Position numbers and translations under genes: made by a program
Assembly: GCA_015060075.1 (NCBI GenBank)
Contig: SUZE01000009.1
Coordinates: forward strand, 1 to 64,000
DNA length: 64,000 bases
Direction: 5' to 3'
DNA from: Rikenellaceae bacterium
GTDB taxonomy: Bacteria; Bacteroidota; Bacteroidia; Bacteroidales; Rikenellaceae
Notes under the pieces: generated by a model
Told to the model about the DNA's origin: nothing
Seen by the model: the letters and a program-made list of their open reading frames with translations, nothing else
The model's database searches: none
In this document: one piece after another, positions 4,707 to 63,055 of the stretch
How the letters are laid out: each line of letters begins with the position of its first letter
Position numbering within the stretch: position 1 is the stretch's first letter

Positions 4707-4750
4707 CTTTTTGGGTATATATACTTGTGGGCGCAAAAATACAAAAACAA

Positions 4751-4782
4751 ACGGAAAACGGAAAACGGAAAACGGAAAACTT
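4751..4782. repeat. Heptamer array (ACGGAAA)4
   Basis: ACGGAAAACGGAAAACGGAAAACGGAAAAC. Confidence 0.95.
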
Positions 4783-8782: not shown

Positions 8783-8840
8783 GGAAAATTGAGAATTGGA
8801 AATTAGTTTTCCGTTTTCCGTTTTCCGCTTTCCGCTTTTT
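8783..8840. repeat. Heptamer arrays TTGAGAA/TTGGAAA then (TTTTCCG)n
   Basis: TTGAGAATTGGAAATTAG followed by TTTTCCGTTTTCCGTTTTCCGCTTTCCG. Confidence 0.9.
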
Positions 8841-9740: not shown

Positions 9741-9826
9741 CGGAAAACTTAAATTAGTGAGTAGAGAGTAGTTGAAAAATAATTTTGCATTTTGCATTCT
9801 GCATTCTGCATTTTGAATTTTGAATT
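9740..9826. repeat. Three heptamer families in series: ACGGAAA, GTGAGTA, TTTTGCA
   Basis: CGGAAAAC; GTGAGTAGAGAGTA; TTTTGCATTTTGCATTCTGCATTCTGCATTTTGAATTTTGAATT. Confidence 0.92.
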
Positions 9827-10367: not shown

Positions 10368-12254
10368 TTATTTCAACCACTCTGCAACCGAAGCATCTGA
10401 CGGCATTCGCAAGTCGCCTCGTGGTGAGAGTGATACCGTTACAACTTTTGGTCCGTCAGGCATTGCCGAGCGCTTGAACTGCTGCGAGAAGAATCGGCGC
10501 AGGAACACTTTTAGCCAATGAGCAATCTCCTCTTTTGAAAACTCTTCGCAGAAGGCTCGACACGCCAAATACTCAATCTTTGCAGGCGAGAAACCGTTGC
10601 GCAAGAAGTTGTAGATAAAGAAGTCGTGCAGTGCATAAGGACCTACCAAATCCTCGGTCTTTTGCGCTATATTGCCCTCGTTGTCGGCAGGCAATAACTC
10701 AGGACTTACGGGTGTCGCCACAATATCGTGTAGCGTTGTGCGCACCTGTGCGTTGGTGTCGTTCTCAGCGCACCACTCAACCAACTTGCGCACCAAAGTT
10801 TTTGGTATTGAGCAGTTTACATTGTACATTGACATCGAATCGCCATTGTAGGTCGCCCAGCCGAGTGCTGCCTCGCTCAAATCGCCTGTGCCGATGACTA
10901 TACCGTTCTCCTTGTTCGCCAAGTCCATAAGTATCTGCGTGCGCTCGCGTGCCTGCGCATTTTCGTATGCGGCACCACGCTCGTTAGGGCTCAAACCGAT
11001 ATCGGCAAAGTGTTGTTCGCAAGCCTTACGAATCGAAATCTCTCGTGTTGTGATACCCAACTCACGCATCAATGTAAGCGCATTTTGGTAGGTGCGGTCG
11101 GTAGTACCGAATCCCGGCATCGTAACGCCGATAATCCCTTTGCGGTCGAGCCCGAGCGTGTCGAAAGTGGCTGCTGTTACCAACAACGCCAAGGTCGAAT
11201 CCAAACCGCCCGAAATGCCGATAACTGCGCACTTGCAGTTGATGCTCGAAAGTCGCTGTGCCAAACCCGCGCACTGAATTGTGAACGCTTCACAGTAACC
11301 CTCCGAGAGGTCGGCAGGGATAAATGGTGCAGGGTTAATCTCGCGCTCCAACTCGCTCTCGGGTTGTGCGATATCAATCTTTACGACATCGAAACGATTG
11401 TCGAGGTTTATAAACGATGTGTGACGGCGGCGCTCGTTGAAGATATGCTCAACATCGATATCTGCAACGGTCAATCGCGCTTCACGCACAAATCGCTCAC
11501 GAGCAGCGATGATTTTGCCGTTCTCGGCAATTATGCCGTTACCCGTAAATACGAGGTCAGTCGAGGACTCGCCTACGCCCGCCGAGCAGTAGATATATCC
11601 GCACAAGGCGCGAGCCGACTGCTGCTTGATAAGCGAACGCAAGTAGTTGTGCTTACCCAAAATCTCGGGCGTTGCCGAGAGGTTGAAGATAAGCGTTGCG
11701 CCTGCCAACGCCATATCCGATGATGGTGGAGCAGGTACCCACAAATCCTCACAAATCTCCACTCCGAAGCGTGTGCCGTGAACATCAAACAAGAGGTCTG
11801 TGCCGAAACGCACTCGCTGACCGCAGATTGTAATCTCGGCATTGCGGATATCGCGCCCCTCCGAGAACCAACGGCTCTCGTAGAACTCCGAGTAGTTCGG
11901 GATATAACTCTTTGGCACTATACCGCATATCTTGCCGTTGGCAATCACTACGGCGCAGTTGTAGAGGTTGTTTTTGTAGTATATCGGCATTCCGATAATC
12001 GATACAATAGGTCGTGGCGTAGCGAGTAACTGCGCCAAGGCCTCATCGCCTGCCTCGATAATTCGTGACTGCAAGAATAGGTCGCCACAAGTGTAACCCG
12101 TAAGTGAGAGTTCGGGGAACACCACTACACTCGCTCCTCGCTCCACCGCCTCGGCGGTCATCTTGTCTATCGCCTCTGCATTGGCGTGGCAGTCGGCAAT
12201 CTTCACCAGCGGTGTTGCTGCTGCCACCTTTACAAAACCATATCTGTTGTTCAT
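10368..12254 (-). CDS. nadE: Glutamine-dependent NAD+ synthase
   Basis: N-terminal nitrilase domain (SLTGYTCGDLFLQ) and NAD synthase P-loop SGGLDSTLALL; likely start MNNRYGF. Confidence 0.96.
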   Translation of the reverse strand: MNNRYGFVKVAAATPLVKIADCHANAEAIDKMTAEAVERGASVVVFPELSLTGYTCGDLFLQSRIIEAGDEALAQLLATPRPIVSIIGMPIYYKNNLYNCAVVIANGKICGIVPKSYIPNYSEFYESRWFSEGRDIRNAEITICGQRVRFGTDLLFDVHGTRFGVEICEDLWVPAPPSSDMALAGATLIFNLSATPEILGKHNYLRSLIKQQSARALCGYIYCSAGVGESSTDLVFTGNGIIAENGKIIAARERFVREARLTVADIDVEHIFNERRRHTSFINLDNRFDVVKIDIAQPESELEREINPAPFIPADLSEGYCEAFTIQCAGLAQRLSSINCKCAVIGISGGLDSTLALLVTAATFDTLGLDRKGIIGVTMPGFGTTDRTYQNALTLMRELGITTREISIRKACEQHFADIGLSPNERGAAYENAQARERTQILMDLANKENGIVIGTGDLSEAALGWATYNGDSMSMYNVNCSIPKTLVRKLVEWCAENDTNAQVRTTLHDIVATPVSPELLPADNEGNIAQKTEDLVGPYALHDFFIYNFLRNGFSPAKIEYLACRAFCEEFSKEEIAHWLKVFLRRFFSQQFKRSAMPDGPKVVTVSLSPRGDLRMPSDASVAEWLK

Positions 12255-12275
12255 AATTGTATGTTTTAATGGCAC

Positions 12276-12973
12276 TCAATGGCATTCGGGCTTCGCCCTT
12301 AATGGCAAGCGCAATCAAAGATTGCTGAATGGCATTGAATGGCAAAAATACTACTTTTTCTTCTTCTCTTCAATACGCGCTTTTGTCAAGGACTCCCTAA
12401 AACCGCCCTCACTGACAAAGCGTGAAATCTGTTTCTCAATATGTTTACGCAGTAAAACATCCTCTTGGTATAGCAATACAATCGCCATATTTGCAATTAC
12501 CTCGTCGTTTCTCGTTTCGGCTATCTCTAAAAAGAATTTAGAATCACGATGTTTCAAACCAAGTTCTCTCATAGCCTCAACCTCTTTCGAATTGGTTTCC
12601 CATATTCGCAAATTGCGAGTTCGCAGATAGTCGATATAGTCTTCCAGCAACTCTTGAAAACTAGACCTCGCCACGCCCAACAACTTTAAGTGCGTTTCGG
12701 CAGATGTTAGCGATGCGGCTTTACCCTCTACAATATTTTGCTTACCCGAACGAGCCGCCTGTATCATTTGGTCTTTTGTGCGGTCGCCTATGGCAATAAA
12801 TCTATCGCAGAAATGGTAGGTTAAATCGTAGATAACCACCGCTTTGCGATAAGCAATAAGATTGCGATACAGATTGTTATTTTGCTTTGTTATATCCATA
12901 CCAAAATCTGCCATTCAATGCCATTCAGTGAGCGTAAGCGAACGCATGCCATTCATTGCCATTCTATGCCACT
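12276..12973. mobile_element. Putative IVS-like cassette: four-helix-bundle gene enclosed by inverted AATGGCATTG-type repeats
   Basis: Exact 20-bp inverted repeat CTGAATGGCATTGAATGGCA (12325-12344) / TGCCATTCAATGCCATTCAG (12909-12928); further ~10-bp unit copies and small hairpins outside on both sides. Confidence 0.5.
12351..12914 (-). CDS. Four-helix-bundle protein (23S rRNA IVS/S23-like family, with C-terminal suffix)
   Basis: 187 aa; RSGKQNIVEGKAA and SFQELLEDYIDYLRTR motifs of the four-helix-bundle family; lysine-rich C-terminus; flanked by inverted repeats. Confidence 0.82.
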   Translation of the reverse strand: MADFGMDITKQNNNLYRNLIAYRKAVVIYDLTYHFCDRFIAIGDRTKDQMIQAARSGKQNIVEGKAASLTSAETHLKLLGVARSSFQELLEDYIDYLRTRNLRIWETNSKEVEAMRELGLKHRDSKFFLEIAETRNDEVIANMAIVLLYQEDVLLRKHIEKQISRFVSEGGFRESLTKARIEEKKKK

Positions 12974-13045
12974 GATTGTTGTTGCTATTCCTTCGCAAAA
13001 TTAAAAATTTTTGCGCACAATACAGCAACAATGAAAAATTATTTC

Positions 13046-13053
13046 TAAATTTG
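13046..13053 (+). promoter_or_regulatory. Bacteroidetes -7 box TAAATTTG upstream of candidate ncRNA
   Basis: Matches TAnnTTTG, ~7 nt before the candidate RNA start. Confidence 0.5.
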
Positions 13054-13059
13054 TAACGC

Positions 13060-13292
13060 AGTCTTCGGATTGCAGACATAATTTGATGAAAGTGTATTAG
13101 CTTTTATCCCTTTTGGAAATCCGGAAGATTTCATTTGACCAAGGGAAGCAACACACTCGTCACCGTGTATTTGGTGTTATGGCACTTTTCCTGCCCTACG
13201 CCTGAATACGGGTGTGAGGTATTGTTTATTTGGTCAGGGCTATTCCGGAGCCTCCAAAAGATAAACTAATCGGCCTCACACTTTCTTTTTAT
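13060..13292 (+). ncRNA. Candidate 6S-like (SsrS / Bacteroidales-1-like) long-hairpin RNA
   Basis: No supported ORF; nested complementarity: GAAAGTGT/ACACTTTC, ATTAG/CTAAT, CTTTTGG/CCAAAAG, TCCGG/CCGGA, TGACCA/TGGTCA, CACACTC/GGGTGTG; TAAATTTG promoter box; T-rich 3' end. Confidence 0.6.
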
Positions 13293-13339: not shown

Positions 13340-14317
13340 ATGAAAACAAAGTACTTTTTATTGATTGCGTTTTTTACGCTATTCTCAACAACAGCTGTAT
13401 TAGCGCAGAACACTGAATCACCTTCTGAAATGTCTATTGATGTGATGAACAGAAAAGGTGTTGCACTATATAACAATGGACAATATGTCGAGGCTGTTCA
13501 ATGGTTTAGAAAAGCAGCAGAGCAGGGAAATGCTAATGCACAATACAATTTAGGTTTTTGTTATGACATTGGAGCTGGCGTCGAAAAGAGTCTTGATGTA
13601 GCGGAAATTTGGTATCGTAAAGCAGCGGAAAATGGAGATATGTCTGCACAATATAGATTGGCTACCATATTGTATTGCTTTCATTACGAAGTTGAAAAAC
13701 GCTCTGAAGGTTTAAAATGGTATCGCAAGGCAGCAGAACAAGGACATGGAGAAGCCGCATATGATCTTGGTCTGTATTATCATCACTCTTCTAAACCTAT
13801 TAATCTACCAGAAGCTATTAAATTATATAAGAAAGCAGCGGACAATGGCTGTTATAGAGGAGCTATAAGTTTGGGAAATCTATATTATCAAGGCAAAGAG
13901 ATAACTCGAAATTATGAAGAAGCGGCTAATTGGTATGAGCAGGGAGCGGTATTAGGTAATGGAGATGCTCAATTAGCATTAGGTATTTGCTATATGCTTG
14001 GAAATGGTGTGACCCAGGATTGTAATAAGTTTATTATGTGGATACAAAAAGCAGCTGAGCAAGATGCCAAGAAGGCGAAACTTGTGTTAGGAGTATGCTA
14101 CTATTGCGGAATTGGTGTTTCGAGGGATACTAGTAAATCGCTTAAACTGATAAAAGAGTTATCAGAGGGCTACTACTATAATAAGTCTGATGTGTATTTT
14201 ACGTTACAGCAATTTGAGAGAAACGAACCAGTGAGCAATGTAACTTTTCCTGGTTCATACGATAAAGATTTTAATAAATTTTTAGATTATATAATGTATG
14301 AAATAAGTAAATCTTAA
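13340..14317 (+). CDS. SEL1-like repeat (TPR-like) exported protein
   Basis: Signal peptide and about six repeats of the type A..WYRKAAEQGNA.AQYNLG. Confidence 0.88.
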   Translation: MKTKYFLLIAFFTLFSTTAVLAQNTESPSEMSIDVMNRKGVALYNNGQYVEAVQWFRKAAEQGNANAQYNLGFCYDIGAGVEKSLDVAEIWYRKAAENGDMSAQYRLATILYCFHYEVEKRSEGLKWYRKAAEQGHGEAAYDLGLYYHHSSKPINLPEAIKLYKKAADNGCYRGAISLGNLYYQGKEITRNYEEAANWYEQGAVLGNGDAQLALGICYMLGNGVTQDCNKFIMWIQKAAEQDAKKAKLVLGVCYYCGIGVSRDTSKSLKLIKELSEGYYYNKSDVYFTLQQFERNEPVSNVTFPGSYDKDFNKFLDYIMYEISKS

Positions 14318-14397: not shown

Positions 14398-15615
14398 TTA
14401 CTTCGCCCACAGCTTGCAGAGGTTGATAATAACCTTTACTGCCTTCTCCATGGTGTTCAGTGAGCAGTACTCGAATTTGCCGTGGAAGTTCATTCCGCCT
14501 GCAAAGATATTCGGGCAAGGCAACCCCATAAACGAGAGGCGCGCGCCATCGGTTCCGCCACGAATTGGCTTTACGATAGGCGTAACATCTGCCTCGACCA
14601 TAGCCTCCTTCGCCAACTCGATAACCTGCGGATGTGGCTCAACCATCTTGCGCATATTGTAGTATTGGTCTTTCAAAGTTAGTTTCAACACTCCCTCGCC
14701 ATACTTGTTGTTGAGGATACCCACGATATTGTGCATCCAAACCTTCTTTGCCTCGAACTTGTCGGCATCATGGTCACGAATGATATAAGAGATTGTAGCC
14801 TCCTCAACAGTACCTGAAATACCTACGCAGTGGTAGAAACCCTCGTAACCCTCGGTATATTGTGGTCGCTCCACAGCAGGAACGAGCGAGTTCAACTCGC
14901 ACGCTACATCTATGGCGTTAATCATCTTATTTTTGGCATATCCCGGGTGGACGTTGCGACCTTGAATGGCAATCTTTGCCGATGCAGCGTTGAAGTTCTC
15001 ATACTCCAACTCGCCCTCGTAGCTGCCGTCCATCGTGTAGGCGAAATCTGCGCCAAACGCCTTCACATCGAAGAAATCTACACCTCGACCAATCTCCTCG
15101 TCAGGGGTAAAGCCGATGCGAATCTTGCCATGCTCCACCTCAGGGTGCGACATCAGGTACTCCGCAGCGGTCATAATCTCTGCTACTCCCGCCTTGTCGT
15201 CTGCACCGAGCAGGGTAGTGCCGTCAGTGTGGATAAGGGTATGACCAACAAAGCGGCTCAACTCCGGGAACTCCGACACTCGCATTGTGAGCGATGGGTT
15301 TAGAACGATATCCCCGCCATCGTACTCCTCGATAATGCGTGGGCGTACATTTTTGCCACTCATATCGGGCGATGTGTCCACATGGGCGAGGAAGCCGATT
15401 ACAGGTGCATGCTCCTTGCCTTCCGATGCAGGGATAGTTCCCATAGCGTAGCCGTACTTGTCGATGCTTACATCCTCCAAACCGAGAGCCTTCATCTCCT
15501 CGACCAAGAGGTTTAACAAATCCCACTCCTTCGCTGATGATGGGAATGTTTCGCTATTCTCGTCTGATTGCGTATCTATCGCAACATACTTCAAAAATCT
15601 ATCTTTTAACTCCAT
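14398..15615 (-). CDS. pepT: Peptidase T (tripeptide aminopeptidase)
   Basis: M20 motifs GFLAHVDTSPD, LLGADDKAG, FTPDEEIGRG, RGGTDGARLSFMGLPCPN. Confidence 0.95.
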   Translation of the reverse strand: MELKDRFLKYVAIDTQSDENSETFPSSAKEWDLLNLLVEEMKALGLEDVSIDKYGYAMGTIPASEGKEHAPVIGFLAHVDTSPDMSGKNVRPRIIEEYDGGDIVLNPSLTMRVSEFPELSRFVGHTLIHTDGTTLLGADDKAGVAEIMTAAEYLMSHPEVEHGKIRIGFTPDEEIGRGVDFFDVKAFGADFAYTMDGSYEGELEYENFNAASAKIAIQGRNVHPGYAKNKMINAIDVACELNSLVPAVERPQYTEGYEGFYHCVGISGTVEEATISYIIRDHDADKFEAKKVWMHNIVGILNNKYGEGVLKLTLKDQYYNMRKMVEPHPQVIELAKEAMVEADVTPIVKPIRGGTDGARLSFMGLPCPNIFAGGMNFHGKFEYCSLNTMEKAVKVIINLCKLWAK

Positions 15616-15636: not shown

Positions 15637-15687
15637 TAATTCTCAATTCTTAATACTCTCGTCTCTCGTCTTTCGTCTCTCGTCTAT
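15637..15687. repeat. Heptamer arrays AATTCTC and CTCTCGT
   Basis: AATTCTCAATTCTTAATACTC then TCTCGTCTCTCGTCTTTCGTCTCTCGTCT. Confidence 0.9.
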
Positions 15688-20037: not shown

Positions 20038-20215
20038 AAAACGGAAAACGGAAAACGGAAGACGGAAAACTTTTAATTTAGTGAGTAGTGAGTAGTTGAA
20101 AACTTTCAGCGCTCCCCATAAAGCGACCAACGGGAGTGCCCCCATAAAGGGCGGAACGCCCGCCCCCATAAAGCAGTCGTAGACTGCGCCCCCAGAAATG
20201 TTGCGCCTTGACAAG
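20038..20215. repeat. Composite repeat: ACGGAAA and GTGAGTA arrays, then CCCCCATAAA units with micro-hairpins
   Basis: See finding; ends CAGCGCTCCCC ... TTGCGCCTTGACAAG. Confidence 0.88.
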
Positions 20216-39194: not shown

Positions 39195-40679
39195 TTGAAA
39201 AAGCGTGTTTTTCTAACCGGAGCAACCGGTGTTATGGGGTCGGCAGGACTTGCCGAGTTGTTTGCCCAAAGGGATAAATTTGATATTACGGTACTTGTGC
39301 GTGATACCAAACGCAATCGCCAAAAGATGGCAAAATATGGCGATGAAATTCGTATTGTATGGGGTGATTTGATGAACTATAATGATGTTCTAAATGCGAC
39401 ATCAGGGGCAGACTACGTGCTTCACGTAGGAGGTATGGTTTCGCCAAGTGCCGACTATAAGCCAAAGAGTGTTTTGAAGGTCAATGTTACGGCTGCGGAG
39501 AATGTCGTGAAAGCGGTTAAAGCACAGCCTAATAGCGATGCGATAAAGGTCGTGTATATCGGCAGTGTCGCACAGACGGGCGACCGCCGTGAACCACTGC
39601 ATTGGGGGCGTACGGGTGACCCGATTTTCCCTTCGATATTCGACTACTACGCCATATCAAAATGTCGTGCAGAGCGCATTTTTGCTGAGTCGGGATTGAA
39701 ACATTGGGTAAGCCTTCGTCAGTCAGGTATTCTCTATCCTGCAATCCTCAAAAATATGGACCCTATCATGTTCCATGTGCCTATTCGTGGTGTGTTGGAG
39801 TGGGCTACTGTTGAGGATTCGGGGCGTTTGTTGGCGAATGTCTGTGGAGATGATGTGCCGGAGGAGTTTTGGTGTAAGTTCTACAATATCGGCAGTGGTG
39901 CGGAATATCGTTTGACAAACTACGATTTCGAGTGCTACTTGCTAAAATCTATCAACTGTCCTGCACCCGAAAAGATTTTCGATGTAAAGTGGTTTGCTAC
40001 GCACAATTTTCACGGGCAATACTACTTCGATTCGGATAAGTTGGAGGAGTATCTGCATTTCCGTGCAAATATACCTGTCGGGGAGTACTTTGCACAGATG
40101 GCAAGCACGTTGCCTTGGTTCTATTCGCTGGCTAAAATTGCCCCTGCATGGTTGTTGAAACCCGTTATGCGTTATATCGCAAGCGATAAAATTTTCGGCA
40201 CTCTCGGTTGGCTTAAAACCAATAATGAGCAGCGCATAAAGGCGTACTTTGGCTCGCGCGAGGAGCGTGAAAAAATAGGCTCATGGGCGGAGATGAGTGA
40301 TATCCACCTTGCCGGCGAAGAGGATGCAGAACGCTTAAATCATGGCTACGATGAGTCCAAACCTCTGGCAGAACTCGATATTGAGGATATGCGTCAGGCT
40401 GCGGAGTTCCGTGGAGGAAAGTGTCTGTCCGAAACGATGACGAAGGGCGACCTTGCTACAAAGTTGGAGTGGGAGTGTGCCTTCGGACACCGCTTTGAGG
40501 CTTCGCCTGCGTTGGTGTTGCTCGGAGGTCATTGGTGCGATAAGTGCATGCCGGCACCTTGGCGATTTGATGAGGAGGCAAAGCGTAATCCATTCCTTGC
40601 GCAGGTGTGGGGCAAGATGCGACCAAATGGCGATGGCGGACAGACCTACGGCACCGCAACACCGAAAGACTATAAATAG
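39195..40679 (+). CDS. NAD-dependent epimerase/dehydratase fused to a C-terminal Cys/His (treble-clef-like) domain
   Basis: MKKRVFLTGATGVMGSAG Rossmann, Y-x3-K (YYAISKCR); C-terminus ECAFGHRFEASPALVLLGGHWCDKC; TTG start. Confidence 0.85.
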   Translation: MKKRVFLTGATGVMGSAGLAELFAQRDKFDITVLVRDTKRNRQKMAKYGDEIRIVWGDLMNYNDVLNATSGADYVLHVGGMVSPSADYKPKSVLKVNVTAAENVVKAVKAQPNSDAIKVVYIGSVAQTGDRREPLHWGRTGDPIFPSIFDYYAISKCRAERIFAESGLKHWVSLRQSGILYPAILKNMDPIMFHVPIRGVLEWATVEDSGRLLANVCGDDVPEEFWCKFYNIGSGAEYRLTNYDFECYLLKSINCPAPEKIFDVKWFATHNFHGQYYFDSDKLEEYLHFRANIPVGEYFAQMASTLPWFYSLAKIAPAWLLKPVMRYIASDKIFGTLGWLKTNNEQRIKAYFGSREEREKIGSWAEMSDIHLAGEEDAERLNHGYDESKPLAELDIEDMRQAAEFRGGKCLSETMTKGDLATKLEWECAFGHRFEASPALVLLGGHWCDKCMPAPWRFDEEAKRNPFLAQVWGKMRPNGDGGQTYGTATPKDYK

Positions 40680-40785
40680 AACGGAGAACGGAGAACGGAG
40701 AAGTCTCAGCGCTCTCCTAATAACCTCTAATAACCCCTGACAACCCCTGCTTTCACTTGCGCCTTGACAAGGGTAGGGGTTGTCT
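40680..40785. repeat. Composite repeat copy: (ACGGAGA)3 then CAGCGCTCTCC...TTGCGCCTTGACAAG
   Basis: Shares the 15-mer TTGCGCCTTGACAAG with the 20-kb copy. Confidence 0.85.
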
Positions 40786-40860: not shown

Positions 40861-41754
40861 ATGCGCAGATTTTGTGAAATATTGTTTGTTGTACTACTGC
40901 CCGTGTGTATGTGGGCGTGTAACTCTTGGTCGGGCTACAAGGCTGATGACGAGATGGTTGCTCGTGTTGGTACCGCATATCTCTATCGTTCGGAGTTAGC
41001 CGCTGCAATGCCGAGAGGTATTGATAAACAGGATAGCGTAAACTACTCGCAAGCCTTTATATCGAAATGGATAGTAGGTCAGCTCAAACAACAAGAGGCA
41101 GAAAAACTATTTTCGCAATCAGAGTCGGATATAGACCGCTTGGTTGAGGAGTATCGCCGTTCATTGTTGGTGCATCGACTCGATAAATATTTTCTCGAAG
41201 CAGAGCCGTGCGGTGAGATTACAGCCAAGGATATTGCAGCATACTACAATGCCCATAAGTCAGACTTTCGCATTACTCACCCAATGGTCAAAGGTGAAAT
41301 TTTTGCGATGGACGAAAAGTTTCGCCGCCGTGAGCAGATGTTGAAGTGGTTTGACTCTTCGAAGCAGGAGCATCGTGAGGATTTTGCGGAGTTGTGTCGC
41401 AAGAACAATCTGTTGCATCTTCAATTTGATGAGTGGGTATCGTTCTCAGATTTTCTGAGTAATTTGCCTTTGCTGCGAACCTCACGACACGAGGAGTTGC
41501 TCGGTAGTCGCAAGATACAGAAGATTCAGCACAATAAGACTCTCTACTACTTCCGCATAACCAACGCCTTGAAGGTTGGCGATACGATGCCTTTGGATAT
41601 GGTAGAGGAGAATATAAGGCAGATTTTGATTAATCGCCATCGTGCCGATGTGATACATAGGCAGGAGGAGCGAATTAAGAATAACGCCCTCTCTTCGGGG
41701 CATGCCAAAATCTACAATCAAACGGAAAACGAAAAACAGAAAACGGAAAACTGA
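40861..41754 (+). CDS. Lipoprotein, SurA/peptidylprolyl-isomerase-like accessory
   Basis: Lipobox LPVCMWAC; upstream TATCTTTG; operon with PpiC-domain protein; start at MRRFCE. Confidence 0.65.
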   Translation: MRRFCEILFVVLLPVCMWACNSWSGYKADDEMVARVGTAYLYRSELAAAMPRGIDKQDSVNYSQAFISKWIVGQLKQQEAEKLFSQSESDIDRLVEEYRRSLLVHRLDKYFLEAEPCGEITAKDIAAYYNAHKSDFRITHPMVKGEIFAMDEKFRRREQMLKWFDSSKQEHREDFAELCRKNNLLHLQFDEWVSFSDFLSNLPLLRTSRHEELLGSRKIQKIQHNKTLYYFRITNALKVGDTMPLDMVEENIRQILINRHRADVIHRQEERIKNNALSSGHAKIYNQTENEKQKTEN

Positions 41755-46200: not shown

Positions 46201-46620
46201 GTTCAGACCATCTACTATATGCAGGAAGATAACTCGCCCGAAATAACCCTTATGGCGTATATCGAGGCTGGTGATATGACCTCCTATATTGAGGGACAGG
46301 AGGTTGTGGGTATTACCTATCGAGGTAATCCGACCTATACCTTCTATCCAATGGATAAAATTCCTGCTACCCAAGCGACCAAATTAGATGGATTTAAGTG
46401 GGAGGCATCACGCCGTCCTTCGCAAGATAGTGTCTTTACTCGCACTATCCGCCCATCGCAGCGAGATTCCAAACGCTCATTGCGTAAGCCTCTATTCCCT
46501 ATAAATTCGCTCCTCCAACAGCGTAAGAGCGATTATATTCGCCGAGGTATTTGGCAAGACCGTACAGATACCCTCACCTATGAGACTATTGAGTGGCTCG
46601 AATCGCTAAAATCGTTCTAA
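43264..46620 (+). CDS. OstA/LptA-like organic solvent tolerance protein with a long DSLK-rich low-complexity insert
   Basis: N-terminal OstA-like repeats (GTVITADSAVRYTERHIECFGNVLINRGTTYIYGDRAEYD); 1118 aa; GTG start. Confidence 0.82.
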   Translation: MKRRVVAISVLLVALASLVFAGSTGLPSLSVPQPQQQSERPSISGKTPKRDYVEMKSDEGWQMEHNGQKIMVVVGNFAAHHNGTVITADSAVRYTERHIECFGNVLINRGTTYIYGDRAEYDGDTNEAKVYSKIVKVVDGGATLFTYNFTFNTQTNIGRYSGGGVLISGDNMLESDKGYIYSDEHEIICVDRVQMRNNEYEMTGDSVVYNTETDFAQFFTRTNIWNKAEQGSGEEDDYLYADRGTFDKRKQLYTLTLNGYILTKDQELLCDTLDYYRDSNYLRLKRNIQIDDRSQKMLIFGDWGEYWKEPGNVFVTKEPSLISYDLSQSDSVFMRSDSMFIYTRYPIREKIEKARQDSLAQAAKKLAADSVQKSKPEQKSAADKKPSERDKKREELLKHADKQRGRGEHNNLGAKGEGGAPMSSNLGEAPTQQGESAVAQAKSLTDTTKVVADTVKVATDSVAVVPKTKAELRRAMIDSLINDTVNPRHNLLAKLLKEEAVEINKIVKAKIKEEQRRRKAERDSILAERHALYVVLLGEARIRDAERREIERAEAKRIKDSLKVVNDSIERAEKIVADSLKRAQKIVNDSLKRAEKLAKRAAKRAVKDTLQLDSLRRDSLQLNFAKVDSVKIDSLAKSIVAADSIKVVMRADSLKTDSLKRDSLPLDSLKLDSVKLDTVKLDTLKLDTPVTDSLKTDSLKVDSLAKDSLQVDSLKADSLQVDSLAKFDTMTVKQVKAYFKAIYDREKAEEERIKQDSLNAKLDRIGLARQAKRTEQYKKWARRDSIYMAKAQERADEQLRRKLARQERRGIYIQMADSSELRIVDSILLAEFGPLDTIVNHNLDSIIEILFPKPLPSPTEIAKADSLNLDSLYREIRAYSRVKMFRSDAQSICDSLTMTTIDSIIHMYKLPVLWNGSNQITSEIMHIITRESQLVQADFEGKPMMVSEIDTAHYNQVAGKAMTALFRDNQIYRNDVNGNVQTIYYMQEDNSPEITLMAYIEAGDMTSYIEGQEVVGITYRGNPTYTFYPMDKIPATQATKLDGFKWEASRRPSQDSVFTRTIRPSQRDSKRSLRKPLFPINSLLQQRKSDYIRRGIWQDRTDTLTYETIEWLESLKSF

Positions 46621-46855
46621 TGAGCTCTTTTTGCACCGCACTTCGGTAGCCGAGATGCTCACATAGGCTAACTATGCTCCGCTCTCGTCTCCTCGCTTGG
46701 CGCAAAAATAATCTCATCATTTACGATTTTGTGAGCGGGTAGAGTTCTAATGAGCTCTTTTTGCACCGTACTTCGGTAGCCGAGATGCTCACATAGGCTG
46801 AGTATGCTCCGCTTTCGCTCCATGACCTCGCACAAAAATAATCTTGTCATTACCA
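46618..46855. repeat. Two tandem ~128-bp-spaced copies of a palindromic intergenic repeat
   Basis: CTAATGAGCTCTTTTTGCACCG(C/T)ACTTCGGTAGCCGAGATGCTCACATAGGCT...TATGCTCCGCT occurs twice. Confidence 0.9.
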
Positions 46856-63022: not shown

Positions 63023-63055
63023 GTTTTCCGTTTTCCGTTTTCCGCTTTCCGATTA
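63023..63055. repeat. Heptamer array (TTTTCCG)4
   Basis: AGTTTTCCGTTTTCCGTTTTCCGCTTTCCG. Confidence 0.92.

Follow-up and report, generated by a model that had tools for sequence, protein, structure and literature searches.

A helix-bundle gene and its private short repeat in the Rikenellaceae: a probable selfish gene-repeat pair

A four-helix-bundle gene of the S23/IVP family, located beside nadE in a Rikenellaceae bacterium, is on the evidence of sequence comparisons a mobile gene that moves as one unit with the two repeat arms enclosing it, and each lineage of such proteins has a repeat unit private to itself. The whole cassette is probably a minimal selfish element in its autonomous-type form, in which a gene of this family sits between the arms of its own repeat; such an element would resemble the REPIN/RAYT systems, but without a known transposase. 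Short intergenic repeats, both heptameric and similar ones, are over-represented and unexplained in many bacteria, and the S23/IVP proteins are common and have no established function. A pairing of gene and repeat could explain this long-puzzling class of short sequences between bacterial genes, and it merges both puzzles into one testable question, in which each gene predicts the exact sequence that its protein should bind.

The window analysed here is a stretch of 64,000 nucleotides (positions 1 to 64,000 of the forward strand of contig SUZE01000009.1, assembly GCA_015060075.1). The cassette and its neighbors are laid out in it as follows.

10368..12254, minus strand: nadE, downstream of the cassette; its ATG is about 14 bp past the outermost unit
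12268..12973, minus strand: whole cassette, gene plus both repeat arms; homology among the nadE, murE-mraY and ddl-DUF3109 copies stops at the outermost AATGGCA/TGCCATT units
12268..12344: downstream arm, five AATGGCA units (plus strand) at 12268, 12278, 12301, 12328 and 12338
12288..12298: small inter-unit hairpin GGGC-TTC-GCCC
12311..12325: small inter-unit hairpin GCAATC-AAA-GATTGC
12351..12914, minus strand: ORF of the four-helix-bundle suffix protein, 187 aa as listed; the conserved start is probably Met6 at 12899 (182 aa)
12909..12973: upstream arm, five TGCCATT units (plus strand) at 12909, 12919, 12947, 12957 and 12967 (the last with one mismatch)
12926..12946: hairpin-like inter-unit spacer CAGTGAGCGTAAGCGAACGCA
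14398..15615, minus strand: pepT, which adjoins nadE in relatives that have no cassette

The initial annotation had described an exact 20-bp inverted repeat (12325-12344 and 12909-12928) around the helix-bundle ORF at 12351-12914 on the minus strand; both are present, and the full arms run further out, to five units per side. This layout is near-identical in seven orthologous cassettes, with units at -74/-64/-54 and -26/-16 from the start and at +9/+19, +46 and +69/+79 from the stop. Of the classical features of MITEs and insertion sequences, the inverted arms are present; the cassette has no transposase, and neither a target-site duplication nor a clean insertion junction is legible, the empty sites compared being too diverged. 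A promoter and terminator scan was uninformative, with counts at or near the shuffle level, and the only match in an Rfam scan of the window was a tRNA, with no match to rRNA. A second recurring sequence, of the tgtctgcaatccgaagactgcaccacaaattta type, lies just upstream of this cassette and of others (window 13041-13110; also in L020, L066 and L190). A Sel1-repeat protein gene (window 13340-14317) stands between the cassette and pepT, and is absent from the matching gap of L067 and of other relatives.

The encoded protein scores 62.4 bits against TIGR04258 (cut-off 40) and 27.2 bits against TIGR02436 (cut-off 24), which confirms its original assignment to the four-helix-bundle family encoded by the intervening sequences (IVSs) of 23S rRNA; its match to the Pfam family 23S_rRNA_IVP is sub-threshold (24 bits). 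Its AlphaFold model is all-helical (pLDDT 91.3), and the best PDB matches, 2gsc and 2rld, are four-helix bundles of the S23 family. No catalytic or transposase motif was recognised in the protein, which matched only four-helix-bundle families. Values of dN/dS among its orthologs lie between 0.03 and 0.11, a range indicative of strong purifying selection on the gene. The idea that the ATG of the ORF is itself the repeat unit is probably wrong, since the in-frame start at this repeat-embedded ATG (12914) is not kept in several close orthologs and Met6 (12899) is conserved; with Met6 as the conserved start, the repeat would end about 9 nt ahead of the start codon. In L104 and L107 the suffix helix-bundle domain is found at the end of open frames of 578-579 codons, a possible fusion.

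Orthologs 87-94% identical to the window protein are bracketed by the same arms at three junctions, pepT-nadE, ddl-DUF3109 and murE-mraY (the names ddl, DUF3109, murE and mraY are putative, coming from a reading of the flanking protein sequences rather than from a family search), and the MAG SIG186 has two copies of the cassette, one at the nadE site and one at the murE site. Homology between copies at different sites ends at the outermost units, so gene and arms move together. In the genus, pepT and nadE adjoin each other. Nearly all relatives in which the pepT-nadE gap was read, the close G047 and G057 included, have no cassette there. Thus the discrete cassette that had been proposed is borne out, both by empty pepT-nadE sites in relatives and by further cassettes at murE-mraY and ddl-DUF3109. 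G031 has a decayed copy at the pepT-nadE junction and an intact one elsewhere in its genome, and G030 has an ORF-less AATGGCA array at this junction. The most similar nadE (97%) is that of G049 (L035), but it has another neighbor, and the genome has no suffix gene and no AATGGCA arrays; nadE or its region may therefore have moved. The pepT-nadE gap of G047 (L036) contains a short run of AAACGTA heptamers in place of the cassette.

Copies of the unit are dispersed well beyond the cassette. With up to two mismatches, AATGGCATTGAATGGCA occurs 33 times in the 1.93-Mb genome as against 2 for the reversed control, and AATGRCANNNAATGRCA occurs 30 times as against 0 for its control, an abundance that is evidently not due to chance. 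The genome has about 15 unit clusters, mostly ORF-less palindromic arrays of 110-170 bp in intergenic gaps. Counts of AATGRCANNNAATGRCA per genome are 15-38 in G000, G030, G031, G047 and G057, 10 in G003 and G005, and 0-1 in each of the 54 remaining genomes of the sample; the three genomes with the cognate gene (G000, G031 and G047) are all in the high-count group. A second unit, GACAACA, which is itself so nearly reversible that the reversed-pattern control is not independent for it, is abundant in G035, G044, G058, G051 and G041, and a gene flanked by it is found in G041, G044 and G058. Many arrays but no detected cognate gene were found in G030 and G057 (AATGGCA) and in G035 and G051 (GACAACA), which suggests that the gene is unnecessary for array persistence, with the caveat that most such assemblies are incomplete. 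Elsewhere in their own locus (up to about 20 kb), own-unit arrays reach a density of 1.97 per 100 kb, versus 0.075 in unrelated genomes (26-fold). The three other suffix paralogs of this genome have flanks made of quite different units; that of one paralog, of the GAGACTAAT type, is also present in dispersed palindromic arrays, and two paralogs have units, CCCCAGAAT and CGACTATGTCGG, that scarcely occur away from the gene to which they belong, so dispersal is not universal among the unit families.

Dispersed arrays could also be the targets of a regulon, in which the protein would act as a post-transcriptional or chromosomal regulator and its own flanks would be autoregulatory. The cognate pairing of units and their intergenic location agree with such a role, as does the proposal by MacGregor that TAACTGA heptamers are binding sites of a post-transcriptional regulator (PMC4679880). 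Nonetheless, we hold it to be quite improbable, because gene and arms relocate as one unit to new sites, the unit is missing from most genomes of the genus, and the palindromic arrays, with their shuffled hairpins, resemble copies of an element.

The pairing of unit and protein extends to suffix genes at large. In 66% of 103 suffix genes a 7-mer occurs at least five times in the flanks; for 540 control genes from these contigs the figure is 6.9%. Among non-syntenic pairs the unit is shared by 1-5% below 60% protein identity, by 43% at 65-70%, by 57% at 70-80% and by 84-85% above 80%. Within a genome, just 2 of the 33 paralog pairs have a unit in common, those of 97% and 78% identity, as against 90% of the 41 pairs of orthologs that come from different genomes and are 80% identical or more. 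Not all of these pairs are independent, since the genomes include close relatives and a number of the contigs are short. When protein columns were searched for covariation with unit type, no concentrated signal emerged, and phylogeny confounds this test. Many of the suffix genes outside Alistipes have weak flanking arrays or none.

A similar arrangement surrounds the ordinary (suffix-less) S23/IVP genes, which are present in 116 of 148 sampled Bacteroidota genomes, with up to 16 per genome. At 30 such loci, several orthologous sites included, the flanks are inverted in 70%, versus 4% for neighbors and 11% for cross-paired flanks. The two genes of this kind that were read in the present genome have heptamer flanks, GACGAGA and TAGCCAT, and ORF-less arrays of these two heptamers also occur in the window.

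15656..15685: ORF-less CTCTCGT heptamer array; unit shared with the flanks of the ordinary S23/IVP gene at contig C42:18467
18883..18909: ORF-less GCTAATG heptamer array; unit shared with the flanks of the ordinary S23/IVP gene at contig C37:7396

Unit length follows the protein subfamily, with 7-8 nt for ordinary proteins and 9-10 nt for suffix proteins: where the flank period is clear, it is 7, 8 or 14 nt in all 17 ordinary cases and 9 or 10 nt in 81 of 85 suffix cases. On cyanobacterial plasmids the best period is a lag of 7 or 14 for 10 of 12 helix-bundle genes, and in full stretches of five such plasmids lag-7 arrays accompany all five helix-bundle genes, versus 6 of 126 other genes. Between nrdB and nrdA, one cyanobacterial copy is in antisense orientation, and in L264 and L265 (plasmids of two genera) helix-bundle genes with heptamer flanks are located between cas6 and cas4 in type I-D CRISPR operons. 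To judge by these loci, helix-bundle genes paired with a short repeat of their own are a recurrent feature of the Bacteroidota and the Cyanobacteria. A wider claim, to which we give about an even chance, is that an entire class of short-period intergenic arrays, of these subfamily-specific lengths and in both phyla, has S23/IVP proteins as its dedicated partners and probably as the factors that spread it. Such a selfish genetic system would be of a new kind, its tandem repeat being read by a non-enzymatic ring protein that sets the unit length.

If the repeats were instead mobilised by an unrelated enzyme (an IS, a RAYT-like or a recombination system), the helix-bundle gene would be trapped cargo, a status compatible with a protein that has no known catalytic motif and with arrays that can abound where no cognate gene is found. 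Such cargo, however, would not retain one unit private to each paralog in many genomes of two phyla, nor would its subfamily determine how long the unit is, and the purifying selection on the gene is strong. We therefore consider this explanation very improbable.

In the predicted fold of the cassette transcript the two arms pair around the ORF (z -5.3), so that the folding which the initial annotation envisaged is upheld at the level of prediction; the ORF-less arrays fold at z -2.4 to -6.9, with 4 of 6 folds (both strands of one array counted) at z of -4.4 or less. Such a structure recalls the IVSs of 23S rRNA, in which, as here, complementary ends bracket an ORF for an S23/IVP four-helix-bundle protein. 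The cassette could be a non-rRNA IVS, able to spread and to be tolerated because RNase III would excise the folded stem from operon mRNAs, as it does in 23S rRNA, with the repeats as stem ends and the protein either incidental or an aid to mobility. In its favor, RNase III cleaves the terminal inverted repeats of the Coxiella IVS, and possible mobile elements is what IVSs have been called (PMC4990558); the ordinary S23/IVP genes of the Bacteroidota are likewise bracketed by inverted flanks at gene junctions. In opposition, the cassette is intergenic, beside nadE and outside any 23S rRNA gene, and its ends are arrays of 9-10-nt (elsewhere 7-nt) units, private to each protein lineage and with ORF-less copies. 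An IVS leaves these lineage-specific tandem units, the genome-wide arrays and the antisense copies without explanation, and the flanks of some elements are direct rather than inverted repeats. An IVS that acts at the RNA level should insert strictly in the sense orientation, and no such restriction was seen, the upstream neighbor being co-directional with the element in 79% of cases versus a background of 71%, and the nrdB-nrdA copy being antisense. Hence, of the earlier suggestion of a non-rRNA IVS, the protein family and the predicted pairing of the arms stand; the dispersal of a lineage-specific unit as ORF-less arrays makes the cassette more than an IVS relocated to an intergenic site, and we judge that origin unlikely.

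For the selfish gene-repeat pair that we prefer, we infer that the protein recognises its units and is the agent of their spread. The ORF-less palindromic arrays would be non-autonomous relatives of the cassette. The protein, probably a ring-shaped oligomer, would bind its cognate array with each subunit on one of the consecutive units, the array being bound as folded RNA or as single-stranded or cruciform DNA; binding would then promote the copying or insertion of array or cassette into new intergenic sites by means of host enzymes. The accessory protein Avd of diversity-generating retroelements (DGRs) is a related four-helix bundle that forms a pentameric ring, binds nucleic acid and works with a reverse transcriptase; no such enzyme is encoded in the cassette. 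The 2gsc crystal entry has five chains and, together with the pentameric Avd, suggests by analogy with TRAP a ring with one unit per subunit. The units per array in other families (median 6.3) spread so broadly that a match of five units to a pentamer fits this cassette only, and these counts neither prove nor exclude the ring model.

Among known systems, REPIN/RAYT has the same logic: each repeat family has a single gene, which its repeat flanks, with several gene-repeat pairs per genome and with the repeat dispersed as palindromic, non-autonomous intergenic copies. RAYTs, however, are tyrosine HUH transposases that recognise a REP hairpin, and they appear to occur as single copies and to be unable to mobilise themselves (Bertels and Rainey 2011, PMC3116915), whereas the cassette protein is a four-helix bundle without tyrosine HUH motifs, its arrays are defined by their period, and its gene cassette is itself present at several sites. 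The present case, if our reading holds, would be a RAYT-like system built on a protein without a known catalytic site.

Heptameric intergenic repeats have been published as the cyanobacterial STRR, the TAACTGA of Beggiatoaceae and the GGGAATC of Xanthomonas (PMC4679880, PMC4692102), and their mechanism of transfer is not evident (PMC4679880). Like them, the heptamer arrays described here have 7-nt units, are intergenic and are patchy in Cyanobacteria and Bacteroidota; unlike them, they bracket S23/IVP genes, a protein partner named in neither PMC4679880 nor PMC4692102, and we found no paper in the open-access literature that joins this protein family to these repeats. The window itself has a tandem repeat of 130-bp period (46614-46851; 1.8 copies, 88% matches) and seven more ORF-less heptamer arrays (4749-4780, 8806-8838, 9782-9826, 20038-20070, 40678-40702, 41720-41751 and 63023-63051), among which are the types AAACGGA, GTTTTCC, ATTTTGC, AAAACGG and AGAACGG.
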